Assembly: GCA_903855945.1 (NCBI GenBank)
Contig: CAIOAK010000194.1
Span: 1 to 48,777 of the forward strand
DNA: 48,777 nucleotides
Origin: an uncultured Anaeromyxobacter sp.
Lineage (GTDB): Bacteria; Myxococcota; Myxococcia; Myxococcales; Anaeromyxobacteraceae
Reading direction: 5' to 3'
Made by a program: the position numbers and the translations under genes. Positions 32,299 through 46,599 of the stretch are shown here, piece after piece; position 1 is the first letter of the stretch; every line of letters starts with the position of its first letter. Under the pieces are notes generated by a model that was not told the DNA's origin, searched no databases, and saw only the letters and a list, made by a program, of their open reading frames with translations.

Positions 32299-32502
32299 CT
32301 ACTTCTCGACCTTGAAGCCGAGCCGGACGGTCACCTGGAACTCGGCGACCTCCCCGCCCTTCACGGCGCCGCGGATCTCGGCGACCTCGAACCAGCTGAC
32401 GTTACGGACCGACTTGCTCGCGCCAGAGACGGCGGACTTGATGGCGTCCGCGACGCTCTTCGAAGAGGTACCGACGACCTCGATTTTCTTGTAGGTGGCC
32501 AA
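32299..32502 (-). CDS. Dodecin
   Basis: The 67-residue protein matches dodecins: YKKIEVVGTSSKSVADAIKSAV and VSWFEVAEIRGAVKGG...FQVTVRLGFKVE. Twelve copies form a hollow sphere that binds flavin or CoA. The conserved Trp of the flavin site is present (SWFEV). It diverges from spt, with the tandem GTCCGGCAC array between. From 32503 to 32738 there is no other gene. Confidence 0.95.
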   Translation of the reverse strand: MATYKKIEVVGTSSKSVADAIKSAVSGASKSVRNVSWFEVAEIRGAVKGGEVAEFQVTVRLGFKVEK

Positions 32503-32738: not shown

Positions 32739-34277
32739 ATGGCTGATCTCTTTGACAAGTGCGCCAACTGGAAGGACCCCCAGGTCCTGAAGCTCGCCGG
32801 ACACTATCCGTACTACCGGGTCATCGAGGAGACCGAGGGTACGGAGGTGGTGGTCGACGGCAAGCGCCTCATCATGGCTTGCTCGAACAACTACCTGGGG
32901 CTCGCCAACGATCCCCGCGTGATGGAGGCGGCCGCCGAGGCCGCACGCCGCTGGGGCGCCTCCACCTGCGGTTCCCGCGTCCTGAACGGGACGATGGCGC
33001 TTCACGACGACCTCGACCACCGGCTCGCGAAATTCCTGGGGAAGGAAGCCGCGGTGGTCTTCTCCACGGGCTTCGGGACCAACCTGGGGACCATCTCGTC
33101 GCTCGTGCTCCGGCACGACATGATCTTCGCGGACCGGATGGTCCACGCCTCGCTCGTCGAGGGCATCCAGGCCGCCTACGGCGAGACGAAGCGCTTCCGG
33201 CACAACAACATGGAGGACCTGGAGCGGTTGCTGGCTGCCGCCAACCCCGAGGCCGGGAAGCTCATCGTCGTGGACGGGGTCTACTCCATGGAGGGGGACC
33301 TCGCGAACCTGCCCGCCATCGCGGAGCTGAAGCGAAAGTACGGAGCCAGGCTGATGGTCGACGAGGCCCACGGCTTCGGCGTCATGGGGCCGAACGGCAA
33401 GGGAACCGGCGAGCACTTCGGCGTGCATGAGGACGTCGACCTCATCATGACGACGTTCTCCAAGTCGCTCGCGTCGATCGGCGGAGTCATCGCCGGGCCC
33501 GCGGACGTGGTGAACTGGATCAAGCACAAGGCCCGGGCGCTCGTGTTCAGCGCGTCGATGACCCCGTCGGCTGCGGCCGCGGCGCTGAAGGCCCTCGAGA
33601 TCATCCAGGCCGAGCCGGAGCGGCGCGAGCGGCTCTGGGACATCTCGGAGCGGGTGCACCGGGAGCTCCGCGGGATGGGCTACGACACCCAGCCGTCGGT
33701 CTCGCCGGTGGTGCCGGTGGTCATCGGCGACCAGGCCCTGGCCTTCAAGCTCTGGCGAAAGCTCACCGATCTCGGGCTCTTCGCGAGCCCGGTCGTGAAG
33801 CCGGCCGTGGAGAAGGAGCTCGTCCGGACCGTATTCATGGCGACCCACACCGACGACCAGATCGACCGCGCGCTGGAGATGTTCCAGAAGGCCGGGCGCG
33901 ATCTCGGGATCATCCCGGCGGAGCGGCCGCACACCCGGGTCGAGGTGAAGATGGCCCGGCCGGGGGTCACCGGCTTCTACTCGTCCCACGAGGGGGCGAC
34001 GACCGCGACCGGGAGCCAGGACGGGGGCGTTCGCCTGGAGATCGTGGATGTGCTGACGCAGGGGGACGAACCCTGGTCGCGAAGGTTGTCGAATGCGGCG
34101 GAGATGATCACCTGGCGCGCGATAAACGCGGGGCCGGACGATGTAAAGAACTTGAAGGAGCTGCCGCTCAAGCTCTGGGAAAAGCGGCGCCAGCTCCCCA
34201 CGATGCTCCTCTCGGCCGGCATGAACTTCATGACGCGGCGACAGCAGAATTCGAGCAACGGCCAGCGGGACGCCTGA
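32739..34277 (+). CDS. spt: Serine palmitoyltransferase-like enzyme
   Basis: The 512-residue alpha-oxoamine synthase joins serine and an acyl thioester to give 3-ketosphinganine. The PLP Lys is K242 in TFSKSLASIGG; DEAHGFGVMG (about 208) and SNNYLGLANDP are typical. ATG 32739 has GAGGA at proper spacing. After about residue 400 there is an extra C-terminal region of about 110 residues not found in the compact bacterial enzymes. The following bCerS- and CerR-like genes argue against KBL or BioF. Soluble but membrane-associated is likely. Confidence 0.88.
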   Translation: MADLFDKCANWKDPQVLKLAGHYPYYRVIEETEGTEVVVDGKRLIMACSNNYLGLANDPRVMEAAAEAARRWGASTCGSRVLNGTMALHDDLDHRLAKFLGKEAAVVFSTGFGTNLGTISSLVLRHDMIFADRMVHASLVEGIQAAYGETKRFRHNNMEDLERLLAAANPEAGKLIVVDGVYSMEGDLANLPAIAELKRKYGARLMVDEAHGFGVMGPNGKGTGEHFGVHEDVDLIMTTFSKSLASIGGVIAGPADVVNWIKHKARALVFSASMTPSAAAAALKALEIIQAEPERRERLWDISERVHRELRGMGYDTQPSVSPVVPVVIGDQALAFKLWRKLTDLGLFASPVVKPAVEKELVRTVFMATHTDDQIDRALEMFQKAGRDLGIIPAERPHTRVEVKMARPGVTGFYSSHEGATTATGSQDGGVRLEIVDVLTQGDEPWSRRLSNAAEMITWRAINAGPDDVKNLKELPLKLWEKRRQLPTMLLSAGMNFMTRRQQNSSNGQRDA

Positions 34278-34311
34278 GGCGTCCCCCCCCCCACTCGCCA
34301 GGAACCCGCCC

Positions 34312-35499
34312 ATGACCATGAACAGGCCCGTAGTGGTGCCGGACGTCACAGAGGTGGCGCAGCCTGCCAAGGACGTCGAGGTGAGCCTCGTCTCCACCGG
34401 CATCGACAAGGACCGATTCGTCCGGCTCCCCTTCGAGATCTACCGGGATGACCCCTTCTGGGTGCCGCCCCTCATCATGGAGCGTCACGAGTTCCTCGAC
34501 GCGGCGAAGAACCCGTTCTTCCGGCACGCCGAGGTGGCGCTCTTCCTCGCCCGCCGCGATGGCAAGGTCGTGGGGCGGATCGCGGCCGTGGAGGACCGAA
34601 ACTACAACGCCTTCCACGGGTGCAAGGTCGCGTATTTCGGCCTCTTCGAGTGCATCGACGACCCGGGCGTGGCTGCCGCGCTCGTCGCCGCGGCGAAGAA
34701 CTGGGCGCGGTGGCGCGGGCTTCCGCAACTCATCGGGCCGATGAACCTGTCGACCAACCAGGAGTGCGGCCTGCTCGTCGACGGGTTCGACTCGTCGCCC
34801 TACGTGATGATGTCCTACAACCCGCCCTACTACGCCGACCTGCTCGAGGCCTGCGGGTTCCGGAAGGCGAAGGACCTTTTCGGGTTCGAGCGGTCCGCCA
34901 GGGTTCCGCCGCCGGAGCGGTTCATTCGCATCGCGGACAAGATCCGGGCGCACGAGGGGATCACGGTACGCCCGCTGGACGTCGCTAACTTCGACGCGGA
35001 GGTGGTCCGCATCAAGTCGGTCTACAACTCGGCCTGGGAGAAGAACTGGGGATTCGTCCCCATGACCGACGCCGAGTTCGACTGGCTGGCGAAGGATCTG
35101 AAGCAACTGGTGGTGCCGGAGCTGGCGCTCATCGCGGAGGCGCATGGGGAGCCAATCGCCTTCGCATTGACGGTGCCGGACATCAACCAAGCGTTCAAGA
35201 AGGTGGGCGGGAACCTCACCACCTACGGGATACCGATCGGACTGGCAAAGCTGCTCTGGTTCCAGAAGCGGATCACCCGCATCCGACTCATGGCCCTCGG
35301 CATCAAGGAGGGCTGGCGCCGGCGCGGAATCGACGCGGTTTTGATCGTCGAGACCATCCGCCGCGCGGACCAGGCCGGCTACGAGGGAGGCGAGGTGAGC
35401 TGGACCCTCGAGGACAACACCCTCATCAACAAGGCCATCGAGTCGGCGGGGGCGAGGCGCTCGAAGGTGTGGCGCCTCTACGAGATGCCGGTCGAATAG
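34312..35499 (+). CDS. bcerS: GNAT-like bacterial ceramide synthase
   Basis: The 395-residue protein has a two-lobed GNAT-like fold: RDDPFWVPPLIMERHEFLD at the start and the acyltransferase region ELALIAEAHGEPIAFALT...RIRLMALGIKEGWRRRGIDAVLI...GYEGGEVSWTLEDN. In Caulobacter, a GNAT-type protein next to Spt N-acylates the long-chain base; gene order and family match here. It follows spt by 34 nt. Assignment rests on family and context. Two GTGCCGGAC copies lie inside it. Confidence 0.8.
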   Translation: MTMNRPVVVPDVTEVAQPAKDVEVSLVSTGIDKDRFVRLPFEIYRDDPFWVPPLIMERHEFLDAAKNPFFRHAEVALFLARRDGKVVGRIAAVEDRNYNAFHGCKVAYFGLFECIDDPGVAAALVAAAKNWARWRGLPQLIGPMNLSTNQECGLLVDGFDSSPYVMMSYNPPYYADLLEACGFRKAKDLFGFERSARVPPPERFIRIADKIRAHEGITVRPLDVANFDAEVVRIKSVYNSAWEKNWGFVPMTDAEFDWLAKDLKQLVVPELALIAEAHGEPIAFALTVPDINQAFKKVGGNLTTYGIPIGLAKLLWFQKRITRIRLMALGIKEGWRRRGIDAVLIVETIRRADQAGYEGGEVSWTLEDNTLINKAIESAGARRSKVWRLYEMPVE

Positions 35500-35502
35500 G
35501 CC

Positions 35503-36495
35503 GTGCGCTGGCTCGTCACCGGGGCGACCGGCTTCATCGGGACCACCCTCGTCGAACGGCTCGTCGCTCGCGGCGACGAGGTGCGGGCGCTCGTGCGGGA
35601 TCCCGGGAGGGCGGGCGAGCTCAGGAAGCTGGGCGCGAGGTTGGTGAAGGGGGATGTCGGCCAGGCCGAGACCCTCGCGGGTGCGGTGCCGGACGTGGAC
35701 GTGGTGGTCCACCTGGCCGGGCTCGTCAAGGCGGTGACGAGGGACGAGCTATTCGCCGTCAATGCGGAAGGAACGCGGTCCCTGGCGAAGGCCGCGGCGC
35801 GGAGCGGTCGGACGAAGTTCGTCCTCGTGTCATCGCTCGCGGCGGCAGGGCCTTCAACCCCTGGACGACCGCGGGTCGAGAGCGATCGTCCGGCACCGGT
35901 CAGTTCCTACGGCCAGAGCAAGCTCGCAGCGGAGGAGGCCCTCCGTTCGCACGTGCACGAACTCGAAGCCGCCGTCATCCGGCCGCCGATCGTCTACGGC
36001 CCGAGGGACAAGGAGTTCCTCCCCTCCCTGTTTCGCCTCGCCAAGATGGGAATCGTCGCCAAGTCGGGCCTGGCGGACAAGCGCTACAGCCTGATCCACG
36101 TGGACGATCTCGTCAATCTGATCCTCGGTGTCGCGGAAAGAGGTTCCCGTCTCACGGATGCGGGCTCCGCGGGCATCTACTTTGGTTCCGACGGGATCGA
36201 GTACACGTGGGAGGCGCTGGCGCACGGAGCCATGGCGGCCCTCGGGCGACGCGGGGCCGTCGTGCCGGTGCCGGAGTTCATGACCTGGCTCGCGGCGGGC
36301 GCATCCTCGGCGGTGGCTCGCGTCACCGGAAGGCCCGCCATCCTGTCACTCGACAAGATGATGGAGATTCGCGAGGCGGCCTGGACCTGCTCGCCGGACA
36401 AGGCGCAGCGCGAGCTCGGATGGAAGGCGCGCGTGGACTTCACCACGGGTATGAAGGAGTCCGCGCGCTGGTTCCGCGACCGCGGGCTCGTCTGA
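35503..36495 (+). CDS. cerR: NAD-dependent epimerase/reductase, ceramide reductase-like
   Basis: The 330-residue extended SDR has the cofactor motif TGATGFIG, VSSLAAAG and the active-site SSYGQSKLAAE (Tyr-x3-Lys). In the bacterial ceramide pathway CerR reduces the ketone made by Spt. GTG 35503 starts 3 nt after the bCerS stop, so the genes form a tight operon. CerR-like proteins are hard to tell from other SDRs without context. It contains two repeat motifs, at 35696 and 35888. Confidence 0.82.
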   Translation: MRWLVTGATGFIGTTLVERLVARGDEVRALVRDPGRAGELRKLGARLVKGDVGQAETLAGAVPDVDVVVHLAGLVKAVTRDELFAVNAEGTRSLAKAAARSGRTKFVLVSSLAAAGPSTPGRPRVESDRPAPVSSYGQSKLAAEEALRSHVHELEAAVIRPPIVYGPRDKEFLPSLFRLAKMGIVAKSGLADKRYSLIHVDDLVNLILGVAERGSRLTDAGSAGIYFGSDGIEYTWEALAHGAMAALGRRGAVVPVPEFMTWLAAGASSAVARVTGRPAILSLDKMMEIREAAWTCSPDKAQRELGWKARVDFTTGMKESARWFRDRGLV

Positions 36496-36503
36496 CGGTC
36501 CGG

Positions 36504-37172
36504 TTATCCGCTCGGTAGCCCCTCGAGACCTGCGAGGACCGAGGCGATCCAGTACGCCGGGCCGATGAATGGCTTCCGGATGAAATCGGGCCGGCGGCGG
36601 AGCACTCGCTGGATGATCCGCCGAGTGAAGAGGCGCAGATAGGCCCGCTGCCGCTCGCCCGGGCTCCTTCCCAGCGAAAGGTAGGCCGGAGAATCGGCGA
36701 TGAGCGGATTCGTTCGGCCGAGCGCGTAGTGGTCGTGACTCGACCACGGCCACTCGCGGGGCCAGCGCACCATGCCTGCGCGGACGGGGTTCATGTCCCC
36801 GTAGAGCATCACCTCGAGTTCATGCCTTCCCCCGTGGCGGATTCGTGGGGAGCCGAGCCGTTCCATGACGACCTGGCCGCGGCCTCCGGTCCGCAGATTG
36901 GACCACCGGGCGAAGCACTGGTTGACGACCTTCCAGAATGCGCTGAACTCCCGCTGGCCGAGCGTCGAGCGACAGACCACGTGCGGGTGGGTCGTCATGA
37001 GGCAGTAACTGCGGATCTCGATGCCGTACCGCTCCTTGTACTTCGCGAGAAGGCTGAGGAAATGGTGCCTGGCCTCGTCCACATCGAAGACGGGCGAGCC
37101 GTTGTGGCTCCGCCAGAAGCAGTGATGGGTCGTGCCTGCGCCGACGAGGCGCGAGCGAAGGATGCGCGGCAT
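36504..37172 (-). CDS. RAYT / REP-associated Y1-type transposase
   Basis: The 222-residue protein has the HUH single-strand nuclease motif MTTHPHVV (near residue 60) and the MLYGDMNPVRAGMV element typical of RAYTs. The family normally has a Tyr in QxYxRYxN; here the matching segment reads NQCFARWSN, with Phe, so the nucleophile may be lost or lie elsewhere. It sits between cerR and the hydroxylase on the opposite strand, near the middle of the GTGCCGGAC cluster. RAYTs mobilise short extragenic palindromes. Confidence 0.85.
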   Translation of the reverse strand: MPRILRSRLVGAGTTHHCFWRSHNGSPVFDVDEARHHFLSLLAKYKERYGIEIRSYCLMTTHPHVVCRSTLGQREFSAFWKVVNQCFARWSNLRTGGRGQVVMERLGSPRIRHGGRHELEVMLYGDMNPVRAGMVRWPREWPWSSHDHYALGRTNPLIADSPAYLSLGRSPGERQRAYLRLFTRRIIQRVLRRRPDFIRKPFIGPAYWIASVLAGLEGLPSG

Positions 37173-37238
37173 GCGACCGGTAGAAGCAAATGCCGGGCCG
37201 ACGCGAGTGGGTTGAGGAAGTTGCTCGCTATCGAGTGG

Positions 37239-37910
37239 CTATCGTCCGGCACCGGCCGTTGAGCGGTCGTCGCGGGGAAGGGTTCGGAACACGACGTCCC
37301 AGACGGGTGTCGACACCCCGTACCGGGCGTCGGGAGTCTTGAAGTGATGGAGGTAGTGGTGCTTCCGGAGCTTCGCTCCGGTCTCCGTCCGAGGCTTCAC
37401 ATGGTGCACGACATAGTGCGTCATGTCGTACCAGAGGTATCCGGTCACGAGCCCGGCGAAGAACGGATCGAAGAAGCGCGCGCCCACGATCAGGTAGATC
37501 GGAAAGCCGAGGACGATCGCGAGCAGGATCGACATCACCGGAGGCATGACCAGCCGGTCGGGGTCGTGCGGCCAGTCGTGATGGACGCCGTGGATGAGGA
37601 AGTGCACGTCCTGGGCGAACTCCGAGTTGGGGCTCGGAGTGAAGTGGAAAGCCCAGCGGTGCAGGACGTACTCGAGAAGGGTCCAGAAGGCGATCCCACC
37701 CACGAACGTCCCGGCGAAGGCGCCGAGGGAAAGGCTGCCTGCCTGGAGTCCCCGATAGATGAGGTAGGCGATGAAGGGCACCCAGACGATGAGCACCTGC
37801 CAAGGCTTCACGCGAGAGAGGTGCTTCTCGATCCAGTCGACGCGGAACATCCGCGGACTTCCATTCTGCGGGGCGGGGTGGCCGGGAGGGCGGGGTATGA
37901 GCCAGAACAT
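37239..37910 (-). CDS. Fatty-acid/sterol hydroxylase family membrane protein
   Basis: About 223 residues with four membrane helices and the histidine clusters of di-metal lipid hydroxylases: HRWAFHF, HGVHHDWPH, HYVVHH and HHYLHHF. FA2H-type members put a 2-hydroxyl on the N-acyl chain of ceramides. ATG 37910 is preceded by AGGAG; ATG 37850 would give 203 residues and better family length, so the start is uncertain. Closeness to spt-bcerS-cerR supports a ceramide-modifying role, though a sterol or other lipid substrate is possible. Transcribed opposite to the operon. Confidence 0.85.
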   Translation of the reverse strand: MFWLIPRPPGHPAPQNGSPRMFRVDWIEKHLSRVKPWQVLIVWVPFIAYLIYRGLQAGSLSLGAFAGTFVGGIAFWTLLEYVLHRWAFHFTPSPNSEFAQDVHFLIHGVHHDWPHDPDRLVMPPVMSILLAIVLGFPIYLIVGARFFDPFFAGLVTGYLWYDMTHYVVHHVKPRTETGAKLRKHHYLHHFKTPDARYGVSTPVWDVVFRTLPRDDRSTAGAGR

Positions 37911-45549: not shown

Positions 45550-46599
45550 ATGAGCGAGAGCCCCCCGAGGCTCACCGCGCTGTCGCACGGCGCCGGTTGA
45601 GCCTGCAAGATCCGCCCGGCGGAACTGGCGCAGGTCCTGCGCCATCTACCCAGGGTGAATGATGCGCGCGCCCTCGTCGGTCACGAGACGCGCGACGACG
45701 CGGCCGTGTATCTGCTGTCGCCCACCGAGGCCATCGTCGAGACCGTGGACTTCTTCACGCCGGTGGTGGACGACCCGTACTGGTTCGGCCGCATCGCCGC
45801 AGCCAACGCCTTCTCCGACGTCTGGGCCATGGGCGGCCGCCCCATCTTCGCGCTCAACCTGGTGGGCTTCCCGGTCCACACGCTCCCGATGGAGATCCTG
45901 GGGGAAATCCTCCGGGGCGGCGCCGAGACCGCCGCCGCCGCCGGCGCCCCCATCCTGGGCGGCCACAGCATCGACGACCCGGAGCCGAAGTACGGGATGG
46001 CCGTCACCGGCCTCGTCCACCCCGACCGCATCCTGCGCAACGTCGGCGCACGGCCCGGGGACCAGCTCCTGCTCACGAAGCCGCTCGGCTCGGGAATCAT
46101 CACCACGGCCATCAAGCGAGGGATCGCGACGCCCGGGCAGATAGCGGGGGTCACGGCGGTCATGGCGGAGCTCAACCGGGCCGCCGGCGAGGTTCTGGCG
46201 GCGAGCGGCGCCGTCTCCGCCCTCACCGACGTCACCGGCTTCGGCCTGCTGGGGCACGCCTGGGGGATGGCCGAGGGCTCGAAGGTGCTCCTCCACCTCG
46301 ACGCGGCCGCCGTCCCGCTGCAGCCCGACGTCCTGGCGCTCGCGGAGAAGGACGTCGTCCCCGGCGGGAGCAAGGCGAATCTCAAGTGGGTCGCCCCCCA
46401 CGTCCGCTTCGCCGACGCCGTGCCGCACCCGTTCCGGGTGGTCCTGGCCGACGCGCAGACGAACGGCGGGCTCCTCGCGGCGGTGCGTCCGGAGCGGTTC
46501 CTCGCCGTCCAGAAGCTCCTCGCCGACCGCGGCGTCACGGCCGTCCACGTGGGCGAGGTCCGCGCCGCGCCGGAGGGGCCGGCCATCGAGGTCGCCTGA
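45550..46599 (+). CDS. selD: Selenophosphate synthase, itself a selenoprotein
   Basis: The enzyme makes selenophosphate from selenide and ATP. From ATG 45550 the frame meets TGA at codon 17 (45598-45600) in the context HGAG-U-ACK, exactly where E. coli SelD has catalytic Cys17 followed by Cys19 and Lys20. I therefore read it as selenocysteine, giving 349 residues. A start at 45655 would remove the active-site loop. [21 protein letters not shown] and the C-terminal [18 protein letters not shown] complete the family pattern. AGAGGAG lies before the ATG. Neither selA, selB nor tRNA-Sec is in the window. Confidence 0.93.
45601..45634 (+). promoter_or_regulatory. Putative SECIS hairpin in selD
   Basis: One nt after the UGA, CCTGC (45602-45606) pairs with GCAGG (45630-45634), and inside it TCCGCC (45611-45616) pairs with GGCGGA (45618-45623), leaving a tight loop near 15-19 nt from the codon. 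Bacterial SECIS elements lie in this range. The apical loop does not match the E. coli sequence. Confidence 0.6.

Follow-up and report, generated by a model that had tools for sequence, protein, structure and literature searches.

Ceramide is a lipid characteristic of the membranes of animals and plants. Bacterial ceramide synthesis has been described as a three-step pathway in Caulobacter, where Spt and bCerS are cytoplasmic, where fusions place CerR in the periplasm, and where acylation is proposed to come ahead of reduction (PMC11087976). The E. coli BL21 genes yghO, ECD_02852 and ECD_02854 are orthologues of CC_1154 (CerS), CC_1164 (CerR) and CC_1162 (Spt), and delta-proteobacterial SPTs form an established subgroup (PMC9386255). 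Bacteroidetes SPTs use acyl-CoA, and those of alpha-, beta- and gamma-proteobacteria use acyl-AcpR (PMC11324152). In myxobacteria, FA2H-like enzymes that make 2-hydroxy fatty acids have been linked to sphingolipids (Ring, Schwar and Bode 2009, as cited in PMC10002949), and ceramide phosphoinositol is known from Myxococcus xanthus (as mentioned in PMC9246714). Because myxobacterial ceramides and FA2H-like 2-hydroxylases are already published, the locus described here is largely expected and belongs to a known kind.

The window, meaning the whole 48,777-nucleotide stretch analysed, is contig C194 of a draft genome of 4.07 Mb that is 99% complete. With a probability of roughly 0.8, it carries a Spt-bCerS-CerR dihydroceramide operon accompanied by fah, an FA2H-type hydroxylase gene transcribed on its own. 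The genes spt, bcerS and cerR form a tight operon at 32739-36495 on the plus strand, with intergenic gaps of 34 bp and then 3 bp. An earlier note had placed Spt, a GNAT and an SDR consecutively here and likened them to the Caulobacter-type three-step ceramide set; the genes do lie in a row and in one direction at these positions, and all three proteins match the E. coli B/Caulobacter enzymes. All four genomes of the host genus have the order spt-bcerS-cerR-RAYT-fah-uvrD, while spt-bcerS-cerR itself is retained in most of the Myxococcales loci that were inspected and turns up again in many phyla. These gene matches and this conserved order lie far beyond chance.

In the proposed pathway, Spt would convert serine and an acyl thioester into 3-ketosphinganine. 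Homology makes it very probable that bCerS then N-acylates 3-ketosphinganine and that CerR reduces the ketone, producing dihydroceramide. Fah, supplied with O2 and an outside electron donor, likely 2-hydroxylates the acyl chain destined for ceramide, as its own homologues suggest, and its candidate substrates are the free acyl chain, an acyl thioester or ceramide. What is seen directly is the identity and operon spacing of the genes, the conserved histidines, the phylogeny and the repeated neighbourhood, and from these we infer every catalytic step in the organism.

The spt gene (32739..34277, plus strand) encodes a serine palmitoyltransferase of 512 aa whose catalytic core covers about residues 1-392. 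Among solved structures, this core matches the Sphingobacterium multivorum SPT best (3a2b/8guh, E 3e-114, 386 bits), and Foldseek also ranks 3a2b first, with a TM-score of 0.95 over the target, 46% identity and an rmsd of 1.6. In this fold-type I alpha-oxoamine synthase core, H136, D208, H211, K242 and R363, a set of active-site residues with the PLP lysine among them, are invariant in the alignments. The sequence could in principle belong to a KBL or BioF enzyme in a cluster unrelated to sphingolipids, since the Pfam match is to a generic aminotransferase fold alone and all NCBIfam SPT models score below their cut-offs, although one of them is still the top scorer there at 494 bits. A maximum-likelihood tree of 60 rows, which included E. 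coli BioF and Kbl and the genome's own two other alpha-oxoamine synthases, contradicts that assignment. The protein falls in the Spt clade (100/95) and in a Myxococcales Spt clade (100/99), with BioF/Kbl outside at 97/87. Its companions in the tree are Spt enzymes encoded beside bCerS, as it is itself beside bCerS and CerR, and the genome's separate KBL-like and BioF-like paralogues stand apart. Grouping with BioF/KBL had been named beforehand as the outcome that would speak against a ceramide locus, and the tree makes a KBL/BioF identity extremely improbable.

A second alternative accepts the operon but changes its product to a related amino lipid, either a 1-deoxy-ceramide made from alanine or a sulfonolipid made from cysteate. 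The alpha-oxoamine synthase family does include solved cysteate acyltransferases (28eh, 7u7h), and a link has been drawn between sulfono-1-deoxyceramides and bacteria that have Spt-like proteins (PMC11334938). However, the window Spt scores 386 bits against the S. multivorum SPT and 250 bits against the cysteate enzyme, and the ceramide phosphoinositol reported from M. xanthus (PMC9246714) also points to ceramide, so that a non-ceramide product seems quite improbable. Three Spts from Actinomycetota (L137, Streptoalloteichus; L176, Actinomadura parvosata; L192, Bailinhaonella) fall within the Spt clade of the Myxococcales and suggest lateral transfer. Divergent from spt lies a small ORF at 32299-32502 on the minus strand, judged by eye to be dodecin-like.

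The two genes downstream of spt are consistent with dihydroceramide as the operon product. The bcerS gene (34312..35499, plus strand) encodes a tandem-GNAT N-acyltransferase of 395 aa that is 36% identical to YghO of E. coli BL21 over its full length (E 5e-78), and its AlphaFold2 model is a confident tandem GNAT fold (pLDDT 90.8). The cerR gene (35503..36495, plus strand) encodes an extended SDR of 330 aa for the ketone-reducing step; it matches SDR families, is 33% identical to the SDR encoded in the spt operon of E. coli BL21 (E 1e-38), and is linked to spt in most relatives. For comparison, the window Spt and its E. coli BL21 counterpart are 38% identical. The CerR ORF begins right at the Rossmann strand and so leaves no room for a signal peptide. 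One paper states that cerS is always in a different operon from spt (PMC11324152); bcerS sits between spt and cerR in the window and its relatives, which runs counter to that statement. The genes for the acyl carrier (acpR) and the acyl-ACP synthetase (aasR) that are dedicated to the pathway in Caulobacter are both missing from the locus, a point against the ceramide reading, and the only clear FAAL+ACP pair of the genome is on a 3 kb contig.

Beyond its catalytic core of about 390 residues, Spt carries a C-terminal tail of about 120 residues (residues 393-512, encoded at 33915..34274, plus strand). The earlier note had remarked on an extra region of about 110 residues, and the region is real, but it is a Myxococcales-wide feature rather than a peculiarity of this gene. 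All 20 aligned Myxococcales Spts conserve it with the motif E..TWRA.N..PED, though families f6 and f9 show a weaker form of the motif. The tail is absent from other phyla, where Spts encoded beside bCerS end at about 390-427 residues; the three Actinomycetota Spts within the myxococcal clade also have no long tail. AlphaFold2 predicts a disordered or flexible linker followed by low-confidence helices at 446-463, 466-481 and 483-506. A search of Pfam and the PDB returned no known domain, and an amphipathic membrane anchor is not supported, as the best helical moments of the tail (0.45-0.49) do not reach the 95th percentile of those in the core. As a tentative idea, the helical tail might serve specifically for docking or regulation, with bCerS, an acyl carrier or a control protein as its partner, and so couple the first ceramide step to the next. 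Such a coupling device for a bacterial SPT was not found described in the literature searched. The Myxococcales-only tail lends itself readily to testing.

Past the operon lies a RAYT-like (REP-associated tyrosine) transposase gene at 36504..37172 on the minus strand, between cerR and fah. Its match to NF047646 (E 1.7e-11, 44 bits) stays below the curated cut-off of 80 bits and justifies the name RAYT-like only. Recent mobility can be set aside, because the gene is present in one copy, occupies the same site in four genomes and has no notable flanking repeats. In the four members of the host genus it has been kept in place at about 74% identity and is perhaps domesticated; it probably stands outside the ceramide pathway. 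Elsewhere in the window, a SelD-like protein is encoded at 45550-46599 on the plus strand with an in-frame TGA at 45598-45600 (context GAG-U-ACK), which suggests that it is probably itself a selenoprotein.

The hydroxylase gene fah occupies 37239..37910 (minus strand) and probably starts at 37910, preceded by an AGGAG-like site. It had been described as following the operon within 0.8 kb; the distance is right, at 743 bp beyond cerR, but the gene points the other way and the RAYT-like gene intervenes. Its opposite orientation means that fah shares no transcript with the operon and forms a separate transcription unit. The protein belongs to the FA2H/Scs7-type fatty acid (ceramide) 2-hydroxylases (PF04116, E 1.7e-17), and a sequence search of the PDB gives Scs7p (4zr1, E 1.5e-27) alone, the yeast ceramide fatty acid hydroxylase. 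All ten histidines that bind the di-metal site of Scs7p are present, and the four histidine boxes that hold them, already noticed in the first reading, are invariant across 22 homologues. The capacity for lipid 2-hydroxylation suggested at that stage gains from this specific match to the sphingolipid 2-hydroxylase family, from which the activity is predicted.

Yeast and animal FA2H/Scs7 enzymes carry a fused N-terminal cytochrome b5. A fused cytochrome b5 domain gave no match in the 271-aa fah ORF, so electrons would have to come from a separate protein. To our knowledge, plant FAHs also have no fused cytochrome b5, and the fusion is therefore not a defining feature of the FA2H/Scs7 family.

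The position of fah beside spt bears on what the hydroxylase serves. Within the host family the two genes are neighbours in two ways: fah is downstream and convergent in all four members of the host genus, and in another genus (genome G009) it is found upstream of spt in divergent orientation, 219 bp away. Under uniform placement, the chance that one gene falls no more than 1 kb from the cluster is about 0.0014 per genome. In the genome collection, 10 of 80 bCerS loci have an FA2H-type hydroxylase in the fetched flanks (seven from Verrucomicrobiota, one from Eisenbacteria, one from Bailinhaonella of the Actinomycetota, and the record of G009); these ten cases do not count as independent of one another, and the Spt of Bailinhaonella derives from the myxococcal clade. 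Adjacency in both family arrangements, in Verrucomicrobiota and Eisenbacteria and in one actinomycete supports a shared pathway.

The operon could instead make ceramide while fah mainly yields free 2-hydroxy fatty acids, destined either for other lipids or for shortening to iso-even acids by alpha-oxidation, with its place beside spt being incidental. Several observations fit this possibility. The gene has its own start on the opposite strand, and in most Myxococcales that have both, the hydroxylase is unlinked to the ceramide genes. It was not found in the spt-bearing relatives G007 (near complete) and G012, whereas in family f7 the hydroxylase occurs although a close Spt is missing and the bCerS-like GNAT matches at only 39-44%, indicating that the enzyme can serve other acyl lipids. 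Even so, a free fatty acid role as the main one appears unlikely, given that no solved structure is closer than that of the ceramide hydroxylase Scs7p and that adjacency to spt recurs in differing arrangements and phyla. Co-occurrence points the same way: across 126 genomes of the class, bCerS is present in 64 of the 67 genomes with a hydroxylase and in 39 of the 59 without (Fisher p 1.8e-5, a value inflated by relatedness and shared ancestry). Hydroxylation of the ceramide acyl chain thus stays the preferred role for Fah.

Distribution within the host family is uneven. Two genera, g4 and g6 (G006, G008, G011, G013 and G015-G021), have no bcerS, close spt or hydroxylase, and the pathway is accordingly patchy there. 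Further afield, Verrucomicrobial clusters (L143:3971-12810, also L144, L147, L151, L156, L169 and L186) combine an FA2H-type hydroxylase with a bCerS-like GNAT and an Spt-like enzyme on a long branch. L143, whose neighbours were scanned, also holds a CDP-alcohol phosphatidyltransferase, a KDSR-like SDR and an FA_desaturase that bears the motif of sphingolipid delta4-desaturases (PF08557, E 3e-7), which amounts to a eukaryote-style sphingolipid kit in bacteria.

Neighbouring genes also offer hints about head-groups. In G009, the region L102:6913-10627 places the hydroxylase, a myo-inositol-1-phosphate synthase, a PAP2_3 protein and a HAD phosphatase beside spt, which suggests ceramide phosphoinositol in that organism. 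PAP2_3 genes occur near spt in Myxococcaceae as well (L107, L118). An inositol head-group modelled on G009 was considered for the host and rejected, as the host genome has no myo-inositol-phosphate synthase.

Taken together, the analysis locates ceramide-making potential in a family where another genus, g4, lacks the pathway. The operon and its FA2H-type hydroxylase would also provide a testable gene pair for 2-hydroxy-ceramide synthesis outside eukaryotes. Neither the Spt tail nor the adjacency of fah and spt was found described in the literature searched, in which some of the primary myxobacterial sphingolipid work is represented through reviews and later papers.

Compared with the five-gene set of Caulobacter and E. 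coli B (aasR, cerR, acpR, spt, cerS), the window shares homologous Spt, bCerS and CerR, but its Spt differs in having the C-terminal tail. The hydroxylases differ too: the ceramide hydroxylase of Caulobacter is assigned to the DesA-family protein CC_0202, whereas the window hydroxylase is of the FA2H type. With the S. multivorum SPT (3a2b, 8guh) the window Spt has the catalytic core in common, yet the former stops at about 398 residues without the tail of about 120. With yeast Scs7p and human FA2H, the window hydroxylase shares the ten ligand histidines and the motif HGxHHxxPxDxxRLVMPP, while the cytochrome b5 domain is fused only in the yeast and human enzymes. The resemblance extends to sphingolipid synthesis as known from myxobacteria, with the same gene order, the same enzyme families and 2-hydroxylation tied to sphingolipids; the difference is that the hydroxylase of the window stands beside the operon, whereas its Myxococcaceae homologues, 33-42% identical, are unlinked.
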